Part shown: positions 20,081-31,157 of the stretch, piece after piece
How the letters are laid out: each line of letters begins with the position of its first letter
Numbering within the stretch: position 1 is the stretch's first letter
Assembly (NCBI GenBank): GCA_025354985.1
Contig: JANXLU010000012.1
Span: forward strand, 1 to 64,000
DNA: 64,000 nucleotides
Source: Chloroflexota bacterium
GTDB taxonomy: Bacteria > Chloroflexota > Anaerolineae > J036 > Brachytrichaceae
Direction of reading: 5' to 3'
Notes under the pieces: generated by a model
What the model was told of the DNA's origin: nothing
The model's input: only the letters and a program-made list of their open reading frames with translations
The model's database searches: none
Position numbers and translations under genes: made by a program

Positions 20081-20665
20081 TCAGGCGTTTGCCTCATAGT
20101 CCGAAATCGCCTTATCCATACCAAGCACATATCCAATTTCATCGACGCCATTGAGCAGGCATGCCTTTGAAAAGGCATCGATTGGGAAATCGACCTTTCG
20201 GCCGTCGGGAAGCAAAAGTTTTTGTGAAGCAAGGTCCACGTGCAACACCATATTTGGTTCCTCCTCTGCCAAGCTAAATAGCTGTCGATGGGTTTCCTTA
20301 TCCACAATGATCGGAAGCAGCCCGTTCTTAAGCGCATTATTGCGAAAGATGTCGGCAAAGCTTGTGCTAATTACCGCGGTGATGCCCGCACCTGTGATGG
20401 CCCACGGGGCGTGCTCCCGGCTTGAGCCGCAGCCAAAATTATCGCCTGCAAGAAGAATCTTCCGCCCAGTCATTTCCGGCTTATTGACCACAAAATCAGC
20501 CCGTGGCGTACCATCCGCATTATTCCGCCAATCCGCGAACAGTGCGGCGCCCAGGCCAGCTTTGTCGGTCACTTTCAGATATCGGGCTGGAATAATTTGA
20601 TCCGTATCCACGTTCTCGGCCGCAAGCGGAATGACCCTGCTTTCTAACGTTGTAAATTTGCTCAT
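20081..20665 (-). CDS. leuD: 3-isopropylmalate dehydratase small subunit
   Basis: A 194-residue swivel-domain subunit that pairs with LeuC to isomerise 2- to 3-isopropylmalate in leucine synthesis. The start MSKFTTLESRVIPL follows the leuC stop by seven bases. The longer open frame to 20695 would overlap leuC. Conserved segments are ENVDTDQIIPARYLK, the substrate-loop GDNFGCGSSREHAPWAI and RNNALKNGLLPIIV. It is the last gene before the terminator at 20002-20034. Confidence 0.96.
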   Translation of the reverse strand: MSKFTTLESRVIPLAAENVDTDQIIPARYLKVTDKAGLGAALFADWRNNADGTPRADFVVNKPEMTGRKILLAGDNFGCGSSREHAPWAITGAGITAVISTSFADIFRNNALKNGLLPIIVDKETHRQLFSLAEEEPNMVLHVDLASQKLLLPDGRKVDFPIDAFSKACLLNGVDEIGYVLGMDKAISDYEANA

Positions 20666-20672
20666 GTTAGGT

Positions 20673-22082
20673 TCAAGCCAGCATCGTGCGAACATCCGTC
20701 ACAACCCCCGTAATCGCGCTCGCTGCTGCGGTTAAAGGTGACGCCAGAAACGTTCGACCACCCTTCCCTTGGCGACCTTCAAAGTTGCGATTGCTGGTGC
20801 TAACTGCATATTGACCGGGGCTAAGTTCATCACCATTCATGGCAATACACATGCTGCAACCGGCCTCGCGCCACTCGGCGCCCGACGCTTTGAAGATTTG
20901 ATCAAGACCCTCATGCTCCGCCTGTAGTTTCACTTGCTGGCTCCCGGGAACCACCATGACCCGCACCTTTGGGTTGACCGTTCGCCCCTTTAAAAGTGCC
21001 GCCGCCGTGCGCAAATCGCTGATCCGCGAGTTGGTGCAAGATCCAATAAACACCACGTCCAGTTGATGACCAAGCAATGATTGATTTGGCCGCAAACCCA
21101 TATATTCCAACGCTTTGATCAGCGCGTTTCGCTGGCTTATATCGGCAAGATGGGCGGGGTCCGGCACGCGCTCGGTGATGCGCATTCCCATCCCGGGATT
21201 GGTGCCGTAGGTGATCATGGGTGATAGTTCGTCCGCGTCAAGGGTAATGGTGTCGTCATACGCGGCGCCATCATCAGTTGGCAGCTGTTGCCACCAAGTC
21301 ATGGCCTTGTCCCAGGCCGCGCCAGTCGGTGCATATTCGCGACCGGCAATATATTGAAAAGTCGCCTCATCAGGAGCAATCATCCCGGCGCGCGCACCAC
21401 CCTCGATGCTCATATTGCAAACCGTCATGCGTTCTTCCATACTGAGTTTTTTCACGGCTTCACCCGCATATTCAAACACATAGCCCGTGCCACCCCCCAC
21501 CCCATACTTGGCGATGATCCCCAAAATGATGTCCTTTGCGCCGACCCCCTTGTGCAATGTTCCATTTATTTCCACACGCATGGTCTTTGGTTTGCGCTGC
21601 AGCAGACACTGTGTGCTCAATACCATCTCAACTTCGCTGGTGCCAATGCCAAATGCCAGTGCGCCAAATGCACCATGCGTTGCAGTATGGCTATCACCGC
21701 ACACAATAGTCATGCCTGGCCGGGTCAACCCCAGTTCTGGACCAATCACGTGCACAATCCCCATCTTGTCTGCGCCACTGTGAACCCCGTACAACTTGAT
21801 CCCATTTTCTGCGCAGTTCTGTTCAAGCATACTGATCTGCTTGATGACCATGTCGTCCAAGATCGGCAGGCTGCGATCAAACGTCGGGATGCCGTGATCC
21901 ATCGTGGCGAACGTCTTGTCCGGTCGTCGCGCTCGTATGCCGCGCTTGCGCAGACCCGCAAATGCTTGCGGACTGGTTACCTCGTGTACAAGGTGTAGAT
22001 CAATATACAGCACTGCCGGGCTTGCCGGTTCTTGTGCCACCACATGTTTGTTCCAGATTTTTTCAAATAGAGTTTTTTGCAT
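20673..22082 (-). CDS. leuC: 3-isopropylmalate dehydratase large subunit
   Basis: A 469-residue aconitase-family protein that carries the [4Fe-4S] cluster for the LeuCD reaction. The iron-sulphur ligands are seen in [17 protein letters not shown] and in [14 protein letters not shown]. The N-terminus [15 protein letters not shown] and the segments DHGIPTFDR and [25 protein letters not shown] are typical of LeuC. It starts 17 bases after the vapC stop, so it is separated from leuA only by the toxin-antitoxin pair. Confidence 0.97.
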
Positions 22083-22099
22083 AATGTAAATTACGGTTA

Positions 22100-22498
22100 T
22101 TACGGTGAAATCAGTGGGACATTTGGAAAATAGGTTTGGTATCGGGCTGCGTCGCGCGTAAGAAGCGTCAATCCAGCTACATAGGCGTGCGCTCCTATAT
22201 AGAAATCCGGCATAGGCGACGATTTGACGCCACCACGCTGTCTATAAGCACGAAAAGCCTGCGCCGCCAAATAAGCGGCCTCCCATGGAAGTGGTTGCCG
22301 GACAAAGTCAATGGGGCTGATATAGCGGTCTAATTCCTCTTCTTTTAGAAATGCATTGGCAATTTCCGCATAAATAATTGGATTGATGACGAGCATGCCA
22401 TTGCTGCGACAGTCCGATATCTTCGAACTAGACCATTGAAACCAAACCGGATCGCGCGTGGTCAAATCAAGATGCACGTTTACGTCAACGAGCACCAT
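22100..22498 (-). CDS. vapC: VapC-type PIN-domain toxin
   Basis: A 132-residue PIN-domain ribonuclease toxin. The expected acidic metal ligands are present in order: Asp in VLVDVNV at the N-terminus, Glu in [10 protein letters not shown], Asp in [10 protein letters not shown] and Asp in [11 protein letters not shown]. VapC toxins cleave initiator tRNA or rRNA loops when the antitoxin is lost; which RNA is cut here cannot be told. It begins two bases after the antitoxin stop, and the pair lies between leuA and leuC, in the same direction as both. Confidence 0.9.
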
Positions 22499-22500
22499 GC

Positions 22501-22752
22501 TTAATCCTCGCCGCGCGTCAATCGAATGATCTCCGCCGTACTCAGTCCACTGGTTGCGATGCCACCGGCGCGGCGCACAAGCAATTCACCGGCATCCTTT
22601 GTATCCGCAACGGCTACGATCTTTATGCCATCTGCTTCCGCGAGAAAGGTCAATCTGGTATCACTGGTCCAGTTCAACGCATCGCGATAAATTTTTGGCA
22701 ACGTTATTTGTCCCTTCACGGTGAGATGACTGGGTTTAGACTTTATTCTCAT
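22501..22752 (-). CDS. vapB: VapB antitoxin, AbrB/SpoVT-type DNA-binding
   Basis: An 83-residue protein whose N-terminal half (HLTVKGQITLPKIYRDALNW) is the swapped-hairpin AbrB DNA-binding fold. Its C-terminal tail (GLSTAEIIRLTRGED) is the kind of segment that wraps the toxin. It should neutralise VapC and repress the pair by binding the inverted repeat at 22760-22797 immediately upstream. The gene begins 40 bases after the leuA stop. Confidence 0.88.
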   Translation of the reverse strand: MRIKSKPSHLTVKGQITLPKIYRDALNWTSDTRLTFLAEADGIKIVAVADTKDAGELLVRRAGGIATSGLSTAEIIRLTRGED

Positions 22753-22759
22753 CGCGCAA

Positions 22760-22797
22760 TTGTAATACTTATTGGTAATACTTTTCAGGTATTACAA
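22760..22797. promoter_or_regulatory. Probable VapB operator (inverted repeats) at the leuA-vapB junction
   Basis: A perfect 9-bp inverted repeat, TTGTAATAC (22760-22768) and GTATTACAA (22789-22797), with an additional GTAATAC copy at 22775-22781 in between. It overlaps the leuA stop codon and lies just upstream of vapB. On the minus strand the same repeats contain a TATTAC -10-like box nine bases before the vapB ATG, so antitoxin binding would block its own promoter. Confidence 0.7.
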
Positions 22798-24387
22798 ATT
22801 GGCGACCACCTTGTCGGAAACAACGCCGCGCTTGGATTGGGCAAGACCCCGATTTATAGCGGCGAGATACGCCCTGCCACTTGCAACCAGCGTATCTGTA
22901 TCCGCGCTGCGACCACTAAATACGTAGCGACGGCCGTCCTGTGTGGGCAGTTCCACTCGGATAGTGACGTTTGCAATCGCATCAACACCCTCGGTGACCG
23001 CATGCACGTGAAACTCCACCAGCTTGGCATCAACCCCGGTAATTCGATTAATACAATTGCAAACTGCGTTCACCGGACCGTTGCCAATGGCCGCGTCCTC
23101 GTGCAGTTCATTGTCCGTATCCAGCAATATGACGCTTGCTACAGGCTTATTACCCGTTCCTGTCGTGCAATTGAGCATGTGAAGTCGATACATGTCCGTC
23201 GCGAGCGACTCAAATTGGTCGGTAAGAAGCGCCTCCAAATCAGCGTCGCTCACCACCTTCTTTTTGTCACACAATTCCTTAAACCGCACAAATGCCTTGT
23301 CCAATTCTTCCCGGGTCAGGTCATATCCCATCTGCTTTAATCGGTCCGTCAACGCCGCCCGGCCACTGTGCTTGCCAAGCACCAGGTTGGTCGCGTTCCA
23401 GCCAACGCTTTCAGGTCGCATAATTTCGTATGTGAGCGCGTTTTTTAGCATGCCATCCTGGTGAATGCCGGCCTCGTGAGCAAACGCATTGGCACCAACA
23501 ATAGCTTTGTTCGGTTGCACAGGAATCGAGGTCATCGCGCTAACCATCTTGCTGGCACGCACCAATTGCGTGGTGTCCACCTTGCACCAAACAGGTGCAT
23601 ACACCGGTTTACGGGTATGAAGCGCCATCACCACTTCTTCCAGGCTTGTATTACCCGCGCGCTCGCCGATCCCGTTCACGGTAACCTCAACCTGTCTTGC
23701 CCCGGCCAAGACACCGGCAAGCGTATTCGCAGTCGCCATGCCCAGATCATTGTGACAATGAGTGCTCAAAACAATACGTCCTTCCTTAACCCCGGGCACA
23801 CGGGCTGCCAACCCCGCGATCATGTTGTAATACTCACTCGGAGTGAGGTAGCCGACGGTGTCGGGAATATTTAGCGTCGTCGCGCCCGCCTGCACGGCCA
23901 CGCTGCAAACCTGATACAAGAATTCCGCATCCGACCTACCTGCGTCCTCCGGAGAAAACTCGACGTCCGCGCACATTCTTCGCGCATATTGCACCATGTC
24001 ACCCGCAGCCTCGATGCAGTCGCCGCGCGACATCTTGAGCTTGTACTCGAGGTGAATGTCACTGGTTGCCAGAAAGGTGTGTATGCGCGGGCGTCGTGCA
24101 GATTGCACCGCGCCCCACGCCCGATCAATGTCACCTTTTTGCGCACGCGCCAGGCTCGCAATTATCGGCGCCTGATCCAGTTGCCCAACTTCCTGTGCGA
24201 TTCGACTGACCGCTTCGAAGTCTCCTGGAGAAGCGATGGCAAAACCCGCTTCAATCACGTCCACGCCCAGCCGCGCCAGCTGCCTGGCAATCTCGAGCTT
24301 TTCAGCCAGGTTCAGCGTCGCACCAGGGGACTGTTCGCCGTCGCGAAGGGTCGTATCAAAAATAATCAATCTGTTTTGTTCGTCCAT
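22792..24387 (-). CDS. leuA: 2-isopropylmalate synthase
   Basis: A 531-residue enzyme that condenses acetyl-CoA with 2-oxoisovalerate, the first committed step to leucine. The TIM barrel starts [16 protein letters not shown], contains the metal site [19 protein letters not shown] and the segment [19 protein letters not shown]. The C-terminal regulatory domain ([18 protein letters not shown]... [14 protein letters not shown]) is the leucine-feedback part of the long LeuA type. GAHAFAHE-type residues ([17 protein letters not shown]) favour isopropylmalate over citramalate synthase. It starts 12 bases after the upstream ATPase gene. Confidence 0.96.
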
Positions 24388-25930: not shown

Positions 25931-26599
25931 CTATATCCGCTGTAGCGGTTGAGTCCTGGTGCGATGTTCATCCAACGCCGCCAACACACCCGGCTCTGGA
26001 CTGCTCAGCACGGGAACACGCGTTTTCCCAAGTGCCGCTGCTGCGCCTGCCATACTGGCCTGAGCCAGTACCACAACGTCACCAAGCTCTGTAGCGCGTG
26101 CAAGATGCTTCGCGAGCGCGCCACCATAACCGGCCAGGTCTCCAGACTCAAAGTAGGGCCAAGCGCCCTCGCATATATATGAAACAATCTCAACTATTTT
26201 TCCAACGCGTTCCGCTTCTTCGTGCAAAAGCTTCTCAGTTGATGCCAGCGTGCTGGCCAGCGCCGCCGCAACCACAATTTTGCCGCCGATCCGAACCGCC
26301 GCGACAGCCATTGGCCGATCAACCCTAAGCACGGCGGCGCCATGATTTGCGCCAGGTGCCGCCTCCGCCAGACCTCCAATGGTCGAGCACGTGCACATTA
26401 CAACCGAGGACCCGATCATTGCAGCCGCCACCGATTCGTTCACCGCGGCCGCCACACTTGGCGTCAACCCATGCCGTCGGGCCGCATCCAGCAAATCGGC
26501 ACGCACAACATGTCGCACCGTCACTCCCGTGCCATGGGTCAGCATCAGCCGGTCAAATGTCGCAATGTGCGCAGCAGACGTGTGAAGAAACGTGATCAC
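25931..26599 (-). CDS. Aspartate/glutamate/hydantoin racemase-family protein
   Basis: A 222-residue protein of the Asp/Glu racemase fold, starting with GTG. The first active-site cysteine is in VVMCTCSTIGGLAE. In the second half the usual cysteine position reads VVVLAQASMAGAAAAL, a form seen in a subfamily that lacks the second catalytic cysteine. A two-base racemisation is therefore uncertain, and decarboxylase- or isomerase-like chemistry is possible. It sits 76 bases after ilvC and 34 before the ModF-like ATPase gene. Its substrate cannot be told from sequence, though the neighbourhood suggests amino-acid or keto-acid chemistry. Confidence 0.8.
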   Translation of the reverse strand: MITFLHTSAAHIATFDRLMLTHGTGVTVRHVVRADLLDAARRHGLTPSVAAAVNESVAAAMIGSSVVMCTCSTIGGLAEAAPGANHGAAVLRVDRPMAVAAVRIGGKIVVAAALASTLASTEKLLHEEAERVGKIVEIVSYICEGAWPYFESGDLAGYGGALAKHLARATELGDVVVLAQASMAGAAAALGKTRVPVLSSPEPGVLAALDEHRTRTQPLQRI

Positions 26600-26675: not shown

Positions 26676-27833
26676 CTATGCTCCGCCACTACCCGGTTTG
26701 ACCTCTCGCGGGTTGAGCCACGGCATCATTCGCCGAAGCGTTAGGCCCACTTGTTCAATTGGGTGATCCACGTCCTTTTGCCGAATCTTGTTAAACTTTG
26801 CCCGACCGCTGTTATTTTCCTTGATCCAATCCTTCGCAAATTTTCCATTCTGAATCTCGGTGAGCACCTTTTTCATTTCGGCCTTGGTTTGCTTGGTAAC
26901 CAGGCGTGGCCCGGTCACGTAATCACCCCATTCCGCAGTGTCGCTGACGCTGTAGCGCATGTAGTTCAGACCGCCCTGATAAAAGAGATCCACAATCAGC
27001 TTCAGCTCGTGCATGCACTCAAAGTAGGCCGCTTCAGGGTGATATCCGGCTTCAACCAGAGTCTCAAATCCAGCTTTTACCAAATGGCTCACGCCGCCGC
27101 ACAACACAACCTGCTCGCCAAATAGATCGGTCTCTGTCTCCTCGGTAAACGTAGTCGACAACACGCCTGCGCGTGTTCCACCGATGCCTTTCGCATACGC
27201 CAGTGCGTTGGCCAGCGCATTCCCGCTGGCGTCCTGTTCAACCGCCACCAGACATGGTGTGCCGCCACCGTCTTGATAAGTCCCGCGCACGCGGTGCCCC
27301 GGCGCCTGGGGCGCAACCATGCTCACATCAACAAACGACGGCGGCTGAATTTGTGCAAACCGGATGTTGAACCCGTGCGCAAACATAACCGTCTTACCCG
27401 GCTTCAAGTGTGGCTCTACGTGGTCCTTGTAAATCTTGGCACATGGCACGTCGGGCACCAACATCATGATCATGTCGGCGGCTTCGGCGGCTTCGTCAAC
27501 GCTCATCACCTTCAAACCCGCGTTTTCCGCTTTCTGCACGCTCTTACTGGTCGCGGGCAACCCAACGATCACGTTCACGCCGCTATCCTTCAAGTTGAGC
27601 GCATGCGCATGGCCTTGCGAGCCAAACCCAATAATTGCAACGGTCTTATCCTTAAGCAAGTTGAGATCCGCATCCTGCTCGTAATAAATTTTCACATTGC
27701 CGGGCGCGATTTGTTTGGGCTTGCGAACCCGCGGCGCCGCCGCTTTCTTTGCGACCATCTTCTTGACCGGGGCCCTTTTTGCCGGGGTCATTTTCATTGC
27801 TGGTTTCTTACTGATTACTTTTTTGGTTGCCAT
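26676..27833 (-). CDS. ilvC: Ketol-acid reductoisomerase with a basic N-terminal tail
   Basis: A 385-residue enzyme catalysing the second step of valine and isoleucine synthesis. The class I core starts near residue 47 ([14 protein letters not shown]) with the NADPH loop [16 protein letters not shown]. Metal-site segments such as [26 protein letters not shown] and [22 protein letters not shown] follow. Before it lie about 45 residues rich in Lys, Ala and Pro (about 15 basic residues in the first 40, as in [17 protein letters not shown]), resembling histone H1 or ribosomal tails. A GTG at the core start could be an alternative start but has no ribosome-binding site. It follows ilvH by 32 bases. 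Confidence 0.95.
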
Positions 27834-27865: not shown

Positions 27866-28378
27866 CTAGCCGCGCGCCATCGCGATTCGACCGGTGCGAA
27901 CAACTTCCTTTATTCCATATTCTTCAAGCATTTTGATGATCGAATCCACCTTCTCCTCGTTTCCGGTCAGCTCAACCATTATGGAATTTGGGGTCATATC
28001 AACCATCTGGGCTTCAAACAAATCGATCACTTGCTTGATTTCGCTCCGCTTCTGGTTGTCAGCAACGTGCACCTTGATCAACGCCATTTCGCGCAATACC
28101 GCCGGCACTGCACTCAGATCCTGCACATCAATGACGTTCACGAGCTTATATAAATTGCGCTCCACCAGAGCCGCATTGGTCTTGCTGGTATCCACCACGA
28201 TGGTCATCCGGCTCACCGTCGGATCATTCGTCGTGCCCACCGCCAGGCTGTCGATATTAAAGTTCCGACGGCGGAACAGCGACGATACCCGATTCAACAC
28301 GCCCGGTTCATTTTCAACCAACGCGACCAACGTGTGCTTGGTTGGGTTCTTGGAAGCCTCAATTCGGTCTATTAACAT
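27866..28378 (-). CDS. ilvH: Acetolactate synthase small (regulatory) subunit
   Basis: A 170-residue subunit that activates IlvB and gives feedback inhibition by valine. The N-terminal ACT domain reads HTLVALVENEPGVLNRVSSLFRRRNFNIDSLAVG. The rest (ERNLYKLVNVIDVQDLSAVP, GNEEKVDSIIKMLEEYGIKEVVRTGRIAMARG) is typical of IlvH/IlvN. GGGAG lies seven bases before the ATG and overlaps the end of ilvB; the stop-to-start gap is three bases, indicating coupled translation. Confidence 0.96.
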   Translation of the reverse strand: MLIDRIEASKNPTKHTLVALVENEPGVLNRVSSLFRRRNFNIDSLAVGTTNDPTVSRMTIVVDTSKTNAALVERNLYKLVNVIDVQDLSAVPAVLREMALIKVHVADNQKRSEIKQVIDLFEAQMVDMTPNSIMVELTGNEEKVDSIIKMLEEYGIKEVVRTGRIAMARG

Positions 28379-28381
28379 GAT

Positions 28382-30136
28382 TTACTCCCGCACTCCTTCC
28401 ATGCCGCCGCCCATAGCGGCTGGCAACGGTACCTTTTCCCGCCGGGTCATTTCGTTCAATGCCTTGCCGGGTTGCACCATTGGAAACACATTGGTTTCCT
28501 GTTCCACTACAAACTCCATCAAAACCGGACCATTGTGCTCGCGCGCACGTTGAATCACCTCGCGCGCCTCGGCCACGTTGGTCGCTCGCATGCCGCACAT
28601 CCCGTAGGCCTCAGCCAGCTTTACAAAATTCGGGGATGTCATATTCACCGACGAGTATCGGCGATCATGCATCAGCTCCTGCCACTGCCGCACCATGCCC
28701 AGAAAACTGTTGTTGATCACGGCGATCTTAATGTTCAGCTTCTCCTGCATTACAGTTTGCAATTCGGGGATGGACATTTGAAATCCGCCGTCACCGGCGA
28801 TTGCCCAAACCTCATCCTGCGGGCGTCCAAACTTGGCGCCGATGGCTGCTGGAAGCGCAAAACCCATGGTGCCCGCGCCGCCGCTCGTGATCAACTGATT
28901 TTTGCGCCGATGTTGAAAATATTGGGTTTCCCACATCTGATGTTGTCCAACATCCGTGCAAACCGTTATGTCGCCGCCGGTTTCCTCCCAGATCGCGCGT
29001 ATCACCTGGGGCGCCAGCATCATGTTTGGCGGCAGTTCATATGCCATGACGTCGTGTGCCTTCGTATCACCCCGCCATTCATTTATCCGCGCATACCAAG
29101 CCCGATAGCCCCCGGCATGATTCTCTATCATCGGCGTCAGATCCCGCAGCACATCCTTGACACTGGCGCAAATTCCGACATCTGCCGGAACATTCTTGCC
29201 GATTTCAGATGGATCGATGTCCACGTGGATCACCTGCGCATTCTTGGCGTAATACTTCAGGTTTCCCGTCACACGATCATCAAAGCGCATCCCCAGTGCA
29301 ATCAACAAGTCCGCATCCGCAATCGCATTGTTGACATACGCCTCGCCGTGCATGCCCATCATGCGCAGGTTCTGCGGATGATCTTCATTTAGTACACCGA
29401 TACCCAGCAATGTCGTTGTTACCGGAATGCCGCTTTTTTCCACGAACTCAATAAACTCGGCATGAGCGTCCGCGTGCTTGATACCCTGACCCGCCAGGAT
29501 AATTGGCTTCCTGGCCGCGGCAATCAATTGGGCCGCTTGCGAAAGCAAACGGGGCATTTCCTGCTTTTTGGGCGGTTTTGCGGCCTTATACCCGCGCAGG
29601 TTCACCTCGGTTACCGGCACATATTCGGTCATCTTTTGCTGAACATCCTTGCAGATGTCAACCAACACCGGACCAGGTCGGCCGGCTTTCGCGATATGAA
29701 ACGCTTCCACCAAAACACGCGCTAAATCGTTGATGTCGGTTACAAGATAGTTGTGTTTCGTGATCGGCTGTGTAATGCCCGTCATGTCCGTTTCCTGAAA
29801 GGCATCGCTGCCAACCAGATGGCTCGCCACCTGCCCCGTGATTGCCACAATTGCGCTGGAGTCCATCATGGCATTAGCGATGCCAGTCACAAGATTGGTG
29901 GCGCCAGGACCACTCGTGGCCATGCATACGCCCACCCGACCGGTGGCGCGCCAATATGCATCGGCAGCAAGCGCGGCATTTTCTTCATGGCGCACCAACA
30001 CGTGATGAATCTTTCCTTCCACGTCATACAGCGCGTCGTAGATCGGCATGATGGCCCCACCGGGATAGCCAAACACGACGTCAACCCCTTGCTGCATCAG
30101 CACTTCCCAAAATATTTGTGATCCGGTCAATTGCAT
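28382..30136 (-). CDS. ilvB: Acetolactate synthase large (catalytic) subunit
   Basis: A 584-residue ThDP enzyme that makes acetolactate or acetohydroxybutyrate for valine, leucine and isoleucine. I start at ATG 30136 (MQLTGSQIFWEVLMQQGVD) because GGAGG is placed five bases upstream. The in-frame TTG at 30151 lies on top of the attenuator and is unlikely. Key parts are VFGYPGGAIMPIYDALYD, the catalytic glutamate in VRHEENAALAADAYW, and the ThDP-Mg motif GDGGFQMSIPELQT...NN near the C-terminus. It is the first structural gene of the ilv-leu block and is preceded by an Ile/Val/Leu leader peptide and terminator. Confidence 0.96.
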   Translation of the reverse strand: MQLTGSQIFWEVLMQQGVDVVFGYPGGAIMPIYDALYDVEGKIHHVLVRHEENAALAADAYWRATGRVGVCMATSGPGATNLVTGIANAMMDSSAIVAITGQVASHLVGSDAFQETDMTGITQPITKHNYLVTDINDLARVLVEAFHIAKAGRPGPVLVDICKDVQQKMTEYVPVTEVNLRGYKAAKPPKKQEMPRLLSQAAQLIAAARKPIILAGQGIKHADAHAEFIEFVEKSGIPVTTTLLGIGVLNEDHPQNLRMMGMHGEAYVNNAIADADLLIALGMRFDDRVTGNLKYYAKNAQVIHVDIDPSEIGKNVPADVGICASVKDVLRDLTPMIENHAGGYRAWYARINEWRGDTKAHDVMAYELPPNMMLAPQVIRAIWEETGGDITVCTDVGQHQMWETQYFQHRRKNQLITSGGAGTMGFALPAAIGAKFGRPQDEVWAIAGDGGFQMSIPELQTVMQEKLNIKIAVINNSFLGMVRQWQELMHDRRYSSVNMTSPNFVKLAEAYGMCGMRATNVAEAREVIQRAREHNGPVLMEFVVEQETNVFPMVQPGKALNEMTRREKVPLPAAMGGGMEGVRE

Positions 30137-30149
30137 TGTGTCCTCCGAC

Positions 30150-30185
30150 AAAAAAAGGCCCTCCTAAAATTTTAGGAGGGCCTTT
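30150..30185 (-). terminator. Attenuator terminator just upstream of ilvB
   Basis: Perfect 32-base palindrome at 30154-30185 (arms AAAGGCCCTCCTAAAA and its complement). On the minus strand it runs into seven T, and the ilvB ribosome-binding site GGAGG follows directly. No gene ends here; the hairpin sits in the transcribed leader of ilvB, so it is an attenuator. The 5' arm segment TCCTAAA can instead pair with TTTAGGA at 30237-30231, giving a competing antiterminator. Confidence 0.85.
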
Positions 30186-30216
30186 GGCTTTTACAACACT
30201 TCGCGTAACGTTCCGC

Positions 30217-30309
30217 TTACCGTGATGCCGTCCTAAACGACTTCCGCTCCAAGCCCGAAAGGACGAGGAGCAAATCAATACCGACGACGACCACAATACC
30301 CAAACGCAT
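30217..30309 (-). CDS. ilvB leader peptide (Ile/Val/Leu attenuation peptide)
   Basis: A 30-codon open frame in the ilvB leader encodes MRLGIVVVVGIDLLLVLSGL followed by ERKSFRTASR and TAA. Thirteen of 30 residues are Val (5), Leu (6) or Ile (2), concentrated in the first 20 positions, exactly the three products of the downstream pathway. The ATG lies about 12 bases after the -10 box, so the predicted 5' leader is only a few bases and the peptide is probably translated from a near-leaderless mRNA. The codons CTC CTC GTC CTT overlap a segment (CGTCC, 30265-30261) that can pair with GGACG (30233-30229), so ribosome stalling there would free the antiterminator. This is the classic design of ilv and leu leaders. 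Confidence 0.85.
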   Translation of the reverse strand: MRLGIVVVVGIDLLLVLSGLERKSFRTASR

Positions 30310-30320
30310 TACTAAACAGA

Positions 30321-30349
30321 TTTATACCCGATGACGCAGGGCTTGTCAA
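30321..30349 (-). promoter_or_regulatory. Promoter of the ilvB leader and ilv-leu block
   Basis: Consensus -35 TTGACA (30349-30344) and -10 TATAAA (30326-30321) on the minus strand with the ideal 17-base spacing. The expected transcription start is about 30314-30313, only a few bases before the leader-peptide ATG. This is the best sigma-70-type promoter seen in the window. Confidence 0.85.
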
Positions 30350-30428
30350 GTCGTAGAATGTCAACCTGTCTGACAGGCTTATACGATCTTGTAGCAATGC
30401 TAACAAGGAGCCCGCCATCACAGAAGCC

Positions 30429-31157
30429 ATGCTCGACTCGGAGAAACCCCTCAACCGCGACACCCTGGTGGATCAAGTTGCACGACGAATACTGCGCCTT
30501 GCAGCGGATAAAAATTTGCGCGCAGGTGACGCGCTTCCCGCTGAATCCGTTCTTGCGGCGGAATATGGCGTCAGCAGATCGGTGATTCGCGAGGCGCTCA
30601 AATGGCTGAGCGGTCACGGTCATATCTTGATCAGAAACGGTCACAGCACGCGCTTGCGTGCGTTGGACGATGGCAACCTTCGTGCATACTTTTCCCACGC
30701 GTTGGATATTGAACGCGTACCGTTTGCCGAGCTGATGGAGGCGCGCAAGTCAATTGAGATTCAAAGCGCTTCACTGGCCGCCCAACGGCGCGAACCAACC
30801 GAGCTCACCCGGCTGTTTGGTATCGTCGTCCGAATGCGCGCCGAGCTGGACAAACATCACAGCGAGGCATATGTTGACTTGGACGTTGAACTCCACACCT
30901 GCATCGCACGCTCTTCGCACAATTTAGTTGTGCAACATCTCATTAGCGCAATTCGCGGCACGCTAAATACTGCAGTCCACGAAAGCTTGTATCACCGGCG
31001 AACCCGCAGCCAATTGCTCCGTGTCCATGAACTTCATGAAACGATTGTGAGCGAAATCCGCCAGGGCAACCCCGATGGCGCCGGCCAGGCCATGCAAATT
31101 CATTTTGACGAGGCGCTTGCGTTTCTTTATCGTGATCGCCCGCTACGCGTCGCATAA
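30429..31157 (+). CDS. GntR-family transcription regulator, FadR/FCD type
   Basis: A 242-residue repressor-like protein. The N-terminal winged helix contains VDQVARRILRLAADKNLRAGDALPAESVLAAEYGVSRSVIREALKWLSGHG. The C-terminal all-helical FCD domain (ELMEARKSIEIQSASLAA, DLDVELHTCIARSSHN, HELHETIVSEIRQGN) has the Asp/His positions that bind a metal and an organic acid effector. It is divergent from the ilvB promoter, which it may control, and is followed by a lipoprotein gene. AAGGAG lies 19 bases before ATG 30429 but six bases before an in-frame ATC at 30417, so the true start is not certain. Confidence 0.87.
   Translation: MLDSEKPLNRDTLVDQVARRILRLAADKNLRAGDALPAESVLAAEYGVSRSVIREALKWLSGHGHILIRNGHSTRLRALDDGNLRAYFSHALDIERVPFAELMEARKSIEIQSASLAAQRREPTELTRLFGIVVRMRAELDKHHSEAYVDLDVELHTCIARSSHNLVVQHLISAIRGTLNTAVHESLYHRRTRSQLLRVHELHETIVSEIRQGNPDGAGQAMQIHFDEALAFLYRDRPLRVA

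Follow-up and report, generated by a model that had tools for sequence, protein, structure and literature searches.

A probable ribosome-mediated attenuator upstream of ilvB in Chloroflexota

The leader that precedes ilvB on the minus strand of the 64,000-nucleotide stretch of DNA analysed here (the window) very probably corresponds to a ribosome-mediated transcription attenuator of the ilvBNC(-leuACD) cluster (probability about 0.9), which would sense the supply of Val, Leu and Ile through the translation of a leader peptide. Comparative data support well its working as a classical attenuator. From the sequences and folding models, we infer its action in the cell and, likewise, the translation of the leader, its start site, the stalling of ribosomes, the starvation response and how far the operon extends.

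The ilvB leader and the genes that follow it

Along the minus strand, from 30349 to 30134, a consensus promoter is followed by a Val/Leu/Ile leader ORF of 30 codons, then by a terminator of 14 bp with its T-run and finally by the ilvB ribosome-binding site. All the elements that an earlier note had reported at this locus (promoter, leader frame, terminator and ribosome-binding site) are therefore present. The features of the locus and of the downstream genes are the following:

30365..30377, no strand assigned: palindrome CCTGTCAGACAGG, 28 nt ahead of the -35 box, probably the operator bound by the divergent GntR/FadR-type regulator
30344..30349, minus: -35 box TTGACA, kept together with a TATAA-type -10 box in 19/20 family members
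30321..30326, minus: -10 box TATAAA, separated from the -35 box by a 17-nt spacer
near 30314, minus: predicted transcription start, placed from spacing
30217..30309, minus: leader ORF MRLGIVVVVGIDLLLVLSGLERKSFRTASR with its stop codon (ATG at 30309, TAA at 30219-30217), with homologous leaders in relatives
30283..30294, minus: 5' arm of the 1:2 hairpin, Val codons GTG-GTC-GTC-GTC, pairing with 30232-30222 at a probability of about 1 in the ribosome-free fold
30267..30271, minus: 5' side of the inner 1:2 stem, GCTCC in Leu codons (consensus fold, compensatory changes)
30246..30250, minus: 3' side of the inner 1:2 stem, GGAGC (consensus fold, compensatory changes)
30227..30237, minus: segment 2, TTTAGGACGGC, the antiterminator strand, inside the leader ORF and partly shared with the 3' arm of the 1:2 hairpin
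30171..30181, minus: segment 3, GCCCTCCTAAA, which belongs to the terminator 5' arm and is the partner of segment 2
30154..30185, minus: intrinsic terminator (3:4), 14 pairs and a 4-nt loop, with T to 30150
30141..30146, minus: ilvB ribosome-binding site GGAGGA, not included in the terminator stem (ilvB ATG at 30136)
28382..30136, minus: ilvB, acetolactate synthase large subunit (NCBIfam TIGR00118, over cut-off)
27866..28378, minus: ilvN, acetolactate synthase small subunit (NCBIfam TIGR00119)
26676..27833, minus: ilvC, ketol-acid reductoisomerase (NCBIfam TIGR00465)
22792..24387, minus: leuA, separated by 12 nt from the ABC ATPase gene before it
20081..22082, minus: leuC and leuD

The promoter is absent from a pattern-based scan, which has no entry for TTGACA-17-TATAAA because its pattern requires a T at the last -10 position. 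Ahead of the leader ATG, no Shine-Dalgarno site can be recognized. This ATG stands 11 nt from the -10 box in the window; roughly half of the compared leaders show a spacing of 11-13 nt, and the others one of up to 43 nt. The near-leaderless start previously proposed is thus plausible in the part of the family that shows the short spacing, where the predicted start site would leave a 5' UTR of few nt, but it is not general.

The peptide MRLGIVVVVGIDLLLVLSGLERKSFRTASR includes 13 Ile, Val or Leu among its 30 residues, and the density of these codons (10 in 12) is the highest among the 709 short ATG ORFs of the window. The ORF folds better than 100/100 synonymous-codon shuffles (z = -3.8) and the whole leader reaches a fold z of -6.3 against dinucleotide shuffles. 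In the ribosome-free fold, GGACGGCATCAC pairs with GTG-GTC-GTC-GTC at a probability close to 1, and a second helix joins GCTCC to GGAGC. The 1:2 pairing proposed in the earlier note, CGTCC:GGACG, can form, but only when a ribosome near codon 11 covers the Val codons and leaves CTC-GTC-CTT free; the main partner of GGACGGC is the Val run. The terminator, located between the leader ORF and the first structural gene in the window as in its relatives, begins after a gap of 31 nt from the leader stop codon, ends in seven T, three of them inside the stem, and has a folding energy of about -23.7 kcal/mol on its own (z = -4.8 against shuffles).

On the same strand, ilvB is followed by ilvN, ilvC, two other genes, leuA, two short ORFs, leuC and leuD. 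From this gene order, the attenuator could control the whole cluster. Indeed, leuA lies so close to the preceding gene (12 nt) that there is no room for an attenuator of its own. Between ilvC and the ABC ATPase gene, the window encodes at 25931-26599 a 222-aa protein that resembles aspartate/glutamate racemases by eye and has no NCBIfam match. The two short ORFs between leuA and leuC (22100-22752) resemble, also by eye, a toxin-antitoxin pair of the VapBC type.

Conservation and covariation of the leaders

A covariance model built from 20 leaders finds a strong match in 25 of the 28 genomes of the family, which include those that supplied these leaders. A rule independent of the model, which asks for a short ORF densely packed with Ile/Val/Leu codons and a terminator after it, retrieves 53/140 ilvB upstream regions (some contigs being included twice) at a threshold of at least 9 such residues in 12 codons; the best of 135 dinucleotide shuffles reaches 5. 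Within the class, 25/42 further ilvB regions carry a comparable leader and terminator, and none of the shuffled controls does. In the other Chloroflexota classes, 3/38 ilvB regions are positive, one of them with a doubtful terminator. The closest relatives of the ilvB protein belong to Chloroflexota MAGs labelled Thermoflexales, Roseilinea and Anaerolineae, Candidatus Roseilinea being placed by the NCBI taxonomy in Candidatus Thermofontia, Chloroflexota. A genome search likewise assigns the window to a class rich in genomes of this kind, and its source is thus a Thermoflexales/Roseilinea-like member of Chloroflexota. Beyond Chloroflexota, an Ile/Val/Leu-rich leader and a terminator precede ilvB at single loci labelled Acidobacteria (L052), Terriglobia (L056) and Schekmanbacteria (L086).

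The pairing partners were compared by exchanging them between leaders. Segment 2 (GTTTAGGAnGGC or variants) can pair with the terminator 5' arm (GCCnTCCTAAAC) in 20/20 family leaders, where the antiterminator is nearly invariant and its covariation weak (p = 0.024). Over 66 non-redundant leaders, cognate antiterminators reach -19.2 kcal/mol and swapped ones -14.6 (4.6 better for the cognate), a difference equalled in 0/20,000 permutations; as this class-wide permutation ignores kinship among leaders, the figure is no strict probability. The same holds for the 47 leaders from outside the family (-20.4 versus -15.5 kcal/mol, 0/20,000). Compensated pairs are directly visible: TTGGGAGG:CCTCCCAA, TTGGAAGG:CCTTCCAA, CGCTGAGGGG:CCCCTCAGCG and TGTTGGGGCAG:CTGCCCCAACA. 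Within the family, the basal 1:2 stem also prefers its cognate partner (-30.8 versus -27.0 swapped, permutation p below 1e-4), and compensatory changes are found in both the inner 1:2 stem and the terminator. Globally, the comparisons that the earlier note had called for bear out its 1:2, 2:3, 3:4 logic: Val/Leu/Ile codons are kept across the ilvB leaders of relatives, and covariation is seen class-wide for the antiterminator and inside the family for the 1:2 hairpin.

Deeper Anaerolineae (L020, L023, L026, L027, L105-L108, L110, L111, L188, L190 and L200-L202) carry another terminator-like hairpin between the ilvB attenuator and ilvB, and a conserved GGCAAYGANGCC-like motif stands on its 5' side. 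Neither this motif nor the hairpin has a match in Rfam. The motif resembled a separate regulatory element, but its inspected genome-wide occurrences look coding or lack a terminator, and it is recorded here simply as an observation.

The covariance model also matches, in the window genome, a region before cimA that carries an Ile-rich leader and a terminator (L117 / L284, G000:C63, about 2180-2334). A third match (L118) falls within the gene of an ABC permease and was set aside as a chance match. The cimA terminator ends 9 nt before the cimA start, and the G-rich 3' arm may therefore double as ribosome-binding site. All the 26/26 cimA genes found in the family, which belong to the isoleucine pathway, are preceded by an Ile-rich short ORF and then a terminator; therefore, the composition of the leader follows the pathway. 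Indeed, Ile accounts for 148/237 of the Ile, Leu and Val residues in cimA leaders versus 227/1021 in ilvB leaders. As the cimA leader ORFs were picked for their Ile content, a shuffle control was run: at least 5 Ile in 12 codons occur in 13/26 real regions versus 2/130 shuffles, and neither Leu, Val nor four other residues show an excess over shuffles in these regions. The pairing test used above detects no cognate preference for the cimA antiterminators (p = 0.38), which may be built differently, unless the rule for choosing the ORF is too loose. One leuA gene (L173) has a Leu-rich leader. A similar leader was looked for before ilvD, trpE and hisG of the window genome and none was found.

Proposed switch and rival explanations

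Segment 2 (TTTAGGACGGC) ends 7 nt ahead of the leader stop codon and, from geometry and the stall model described below, a terminating ribosome should cover the antiterminator strand. When charged tRNAs are plentiful, the ribosome would thus reach the stop codon and cover most of segment 2, and the terminator would form. Should Val-, Ile- or Leu-tRNA run low, the ribosome would stall on the Val/Leu/Ile codons and melt the 1:2 hairpin; the freed segment 2 would then pair with the terminator 5' arm before the 3' arm is made, and transcription would proceed into ilvB. If the leader is left untranslated, the 1:2 hairpin would sequester segment 2 and the terminator would form.

The stall model removes the RNA that lies upstream of the ribosome or is covered by it, with assumed footprints of 9-15 nt, and considers the RNA made up to the terminator loop. 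For the window, the probability of the antiterminator is 0 without ribosome, about 0.9 with codons 5-9 in the A site, patchy for codons 10-17, about 0.9 again at codons 18-20 and 0 from codon 24 to the stop; it amounts to 0.69 over the early Ile/Leu/Val codons (about 0.9 on the Val run). The means over 20 leaders are 0.92 on the early Ile/Leu/Val codons, 0.02 at the stop and 0.19 without ribosome; among these 20 leaders, the antiterminator forms even without ribosome in L010, L012, L017 and partly in L093. When the full-length RNA of the window is folded with a ribosome on Val7, the equilibrium structure is still the terminator, and the switch must therefore be kinetic, as is the decision in known attenuators. 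The terminator of the window is stronger than those of its relatives (-23.8 versus a mean of -17.6) and its antiterminator weaker (-12.6 versus a mean of -18.6), which may result in a tighter repression in this genome.

Alternatively, the promoter could be the main point of control, with the divergent GntR/FadR-type regulator acting at the palindrome (30377-30365) and the attenuator adding little. The divergent gene (30429-31157, plus strand) matches GntR/FadR-type models with scores below their cut-offs, and in 11/20 compared loci exactly 28 nt separate the palindrome CCTGTCAGACAGG from the -35 box downstream of it. This fixed position where a divergent GntR-like frame is seen, together with the family match, suggests additional promoter control by such a regulator. 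At eight other loci with a matched promoter, however, neither the palindrome nor a divergent GntR-like frame was found, and these eight family members keep the attenuator. The attenuator is therefore the more conserved layer, and both layers can coexist. Control mainly at the promoter appears unlikely.

It is less likely still that the terminator is constitutive or does not respond to amino acids, the ORF merely coupling translation to transcription, or that the leader peptide belongs to a system other than a classical attenuator. A system of the latter kind has been argued for ilvB of Streptomyces coelicolor, where codon changes in a similar leader were without effect (PMC1262725); the strong terminator and weak antiterminator of the window genome would also fit this rival reading. 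Nevertheless, the class-wide covariation of the antiterminator, the covariation of the 1:2 hairpin and the match between leader composition and pathway would be unexpected if the codons and the alternative pairing were idle.

Finally, a T-box or riboswitch that senses tRNA or a metabolite, with an ORF present by chance, is hardly credible: T-boxes (RF00230) do occur in 6/38 sampled ilvB regions from other Chloroflexota classes, but the window has no Rfam match at gathering score and such a device would leave the conservation of the reading frame and of the Val/Leu/Ile codons unexplained. Compared with the T-box (RF00230) and the Leu, Phe, Trp, His and Thr leaders of Rfam, the leader comes near none of the thresholds, the best score being 25.3 bits for Phe_leader versus the required 55; a T-box or another Rfam element in the window was rejected on this lack of match. 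The description of the attenuator as unannotated accordingly holds for Rfam, the sole database checked on that point. The T-box leaders of the other classes lie upstream of ilvB at L236, L240, L245, L250, L255 and L257.

Relationships with known leaders

The mechanism proposed here, attenuation by a translated leader peptide, is textbook; what appears new is its occurrence in Chloroflexota. Indeed, a literature search, in which subscription journals were thinly covered, found no account of an ilvB leader-peptide attenuator in this phylum. The present data would thus place classical leader-peptide attenuation in a phylum for which no description was found, with ilvB under different RNA devices in different classes. 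They also amount to a large natural alignment that records the joint evolution of leader codons, 1:2 hairpin and antiterminator, and the Ile-rich cimA leaders constitute a ready test of specificity. A broader and more tentative proposal, which we consider doubtful as a whole, is that Anaerolineae read the supply of branched-chain amino acids by coordinated attenuators (Val/Leu/Ile for ilvB, Ile for cimA and sometimes Leu for leuA) and other Chloroflexota classes by T-boxes, and that the close relatives of the window start the leader on an essentially leaderless transcript, which would couple leaderless initiation to attenuation.

The enterobacterial attenuators of ilvGMEDA, ilvBN and leu combine a leader ORF containing successive Val, Leu and Ile codons with the 1:2, 2:3 and 3:4 pairings and a terminator before the structural genes. 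The Chloroflexota leaders share with them these codon runs, the pairing logic and the position of the intrinsic terminator. However, they display no sequence homology detectable through Rfam, which gives no match. Furthermore, in the leader described here, segment 2 lies inside the leader ORF, just ahead of the stop codon, the 1:2 hairpin spans almost the whole ORF and, in part of the family, the predicted 5' UTR is of few nt.

The T-box leaders (RF00230) of other Chloroflexota classes precede the same gene, respond to the same kind of signal (amino-acid supply) and have the same terminator/antiterminator output. Unlike the leader described here, a T-box senses uncharged tRNA directly, without translation, and none was found in the window.

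Leader-peptide attenuators of ilvB have been described in Corynebacterium, Mycobacterium and Streptomyces (PMC1262725, PMC11857589, PMC10272879). These actinobacterial leaders occupy the same place before ilvB and also comprise a short Ile/Val/Leu-rich ORF and a terminator; that of Corynebacterium ilvBNC also has antiterminator and anti-antiterminator hairpins (PMC11857589, PMC10272879). Besides the differences in phylum and sequence, the actinobacterial ORF overlaps the terminator hairpin (PMC1262725), whereas the terminator described here begins 31 nt past the leader stop codon.
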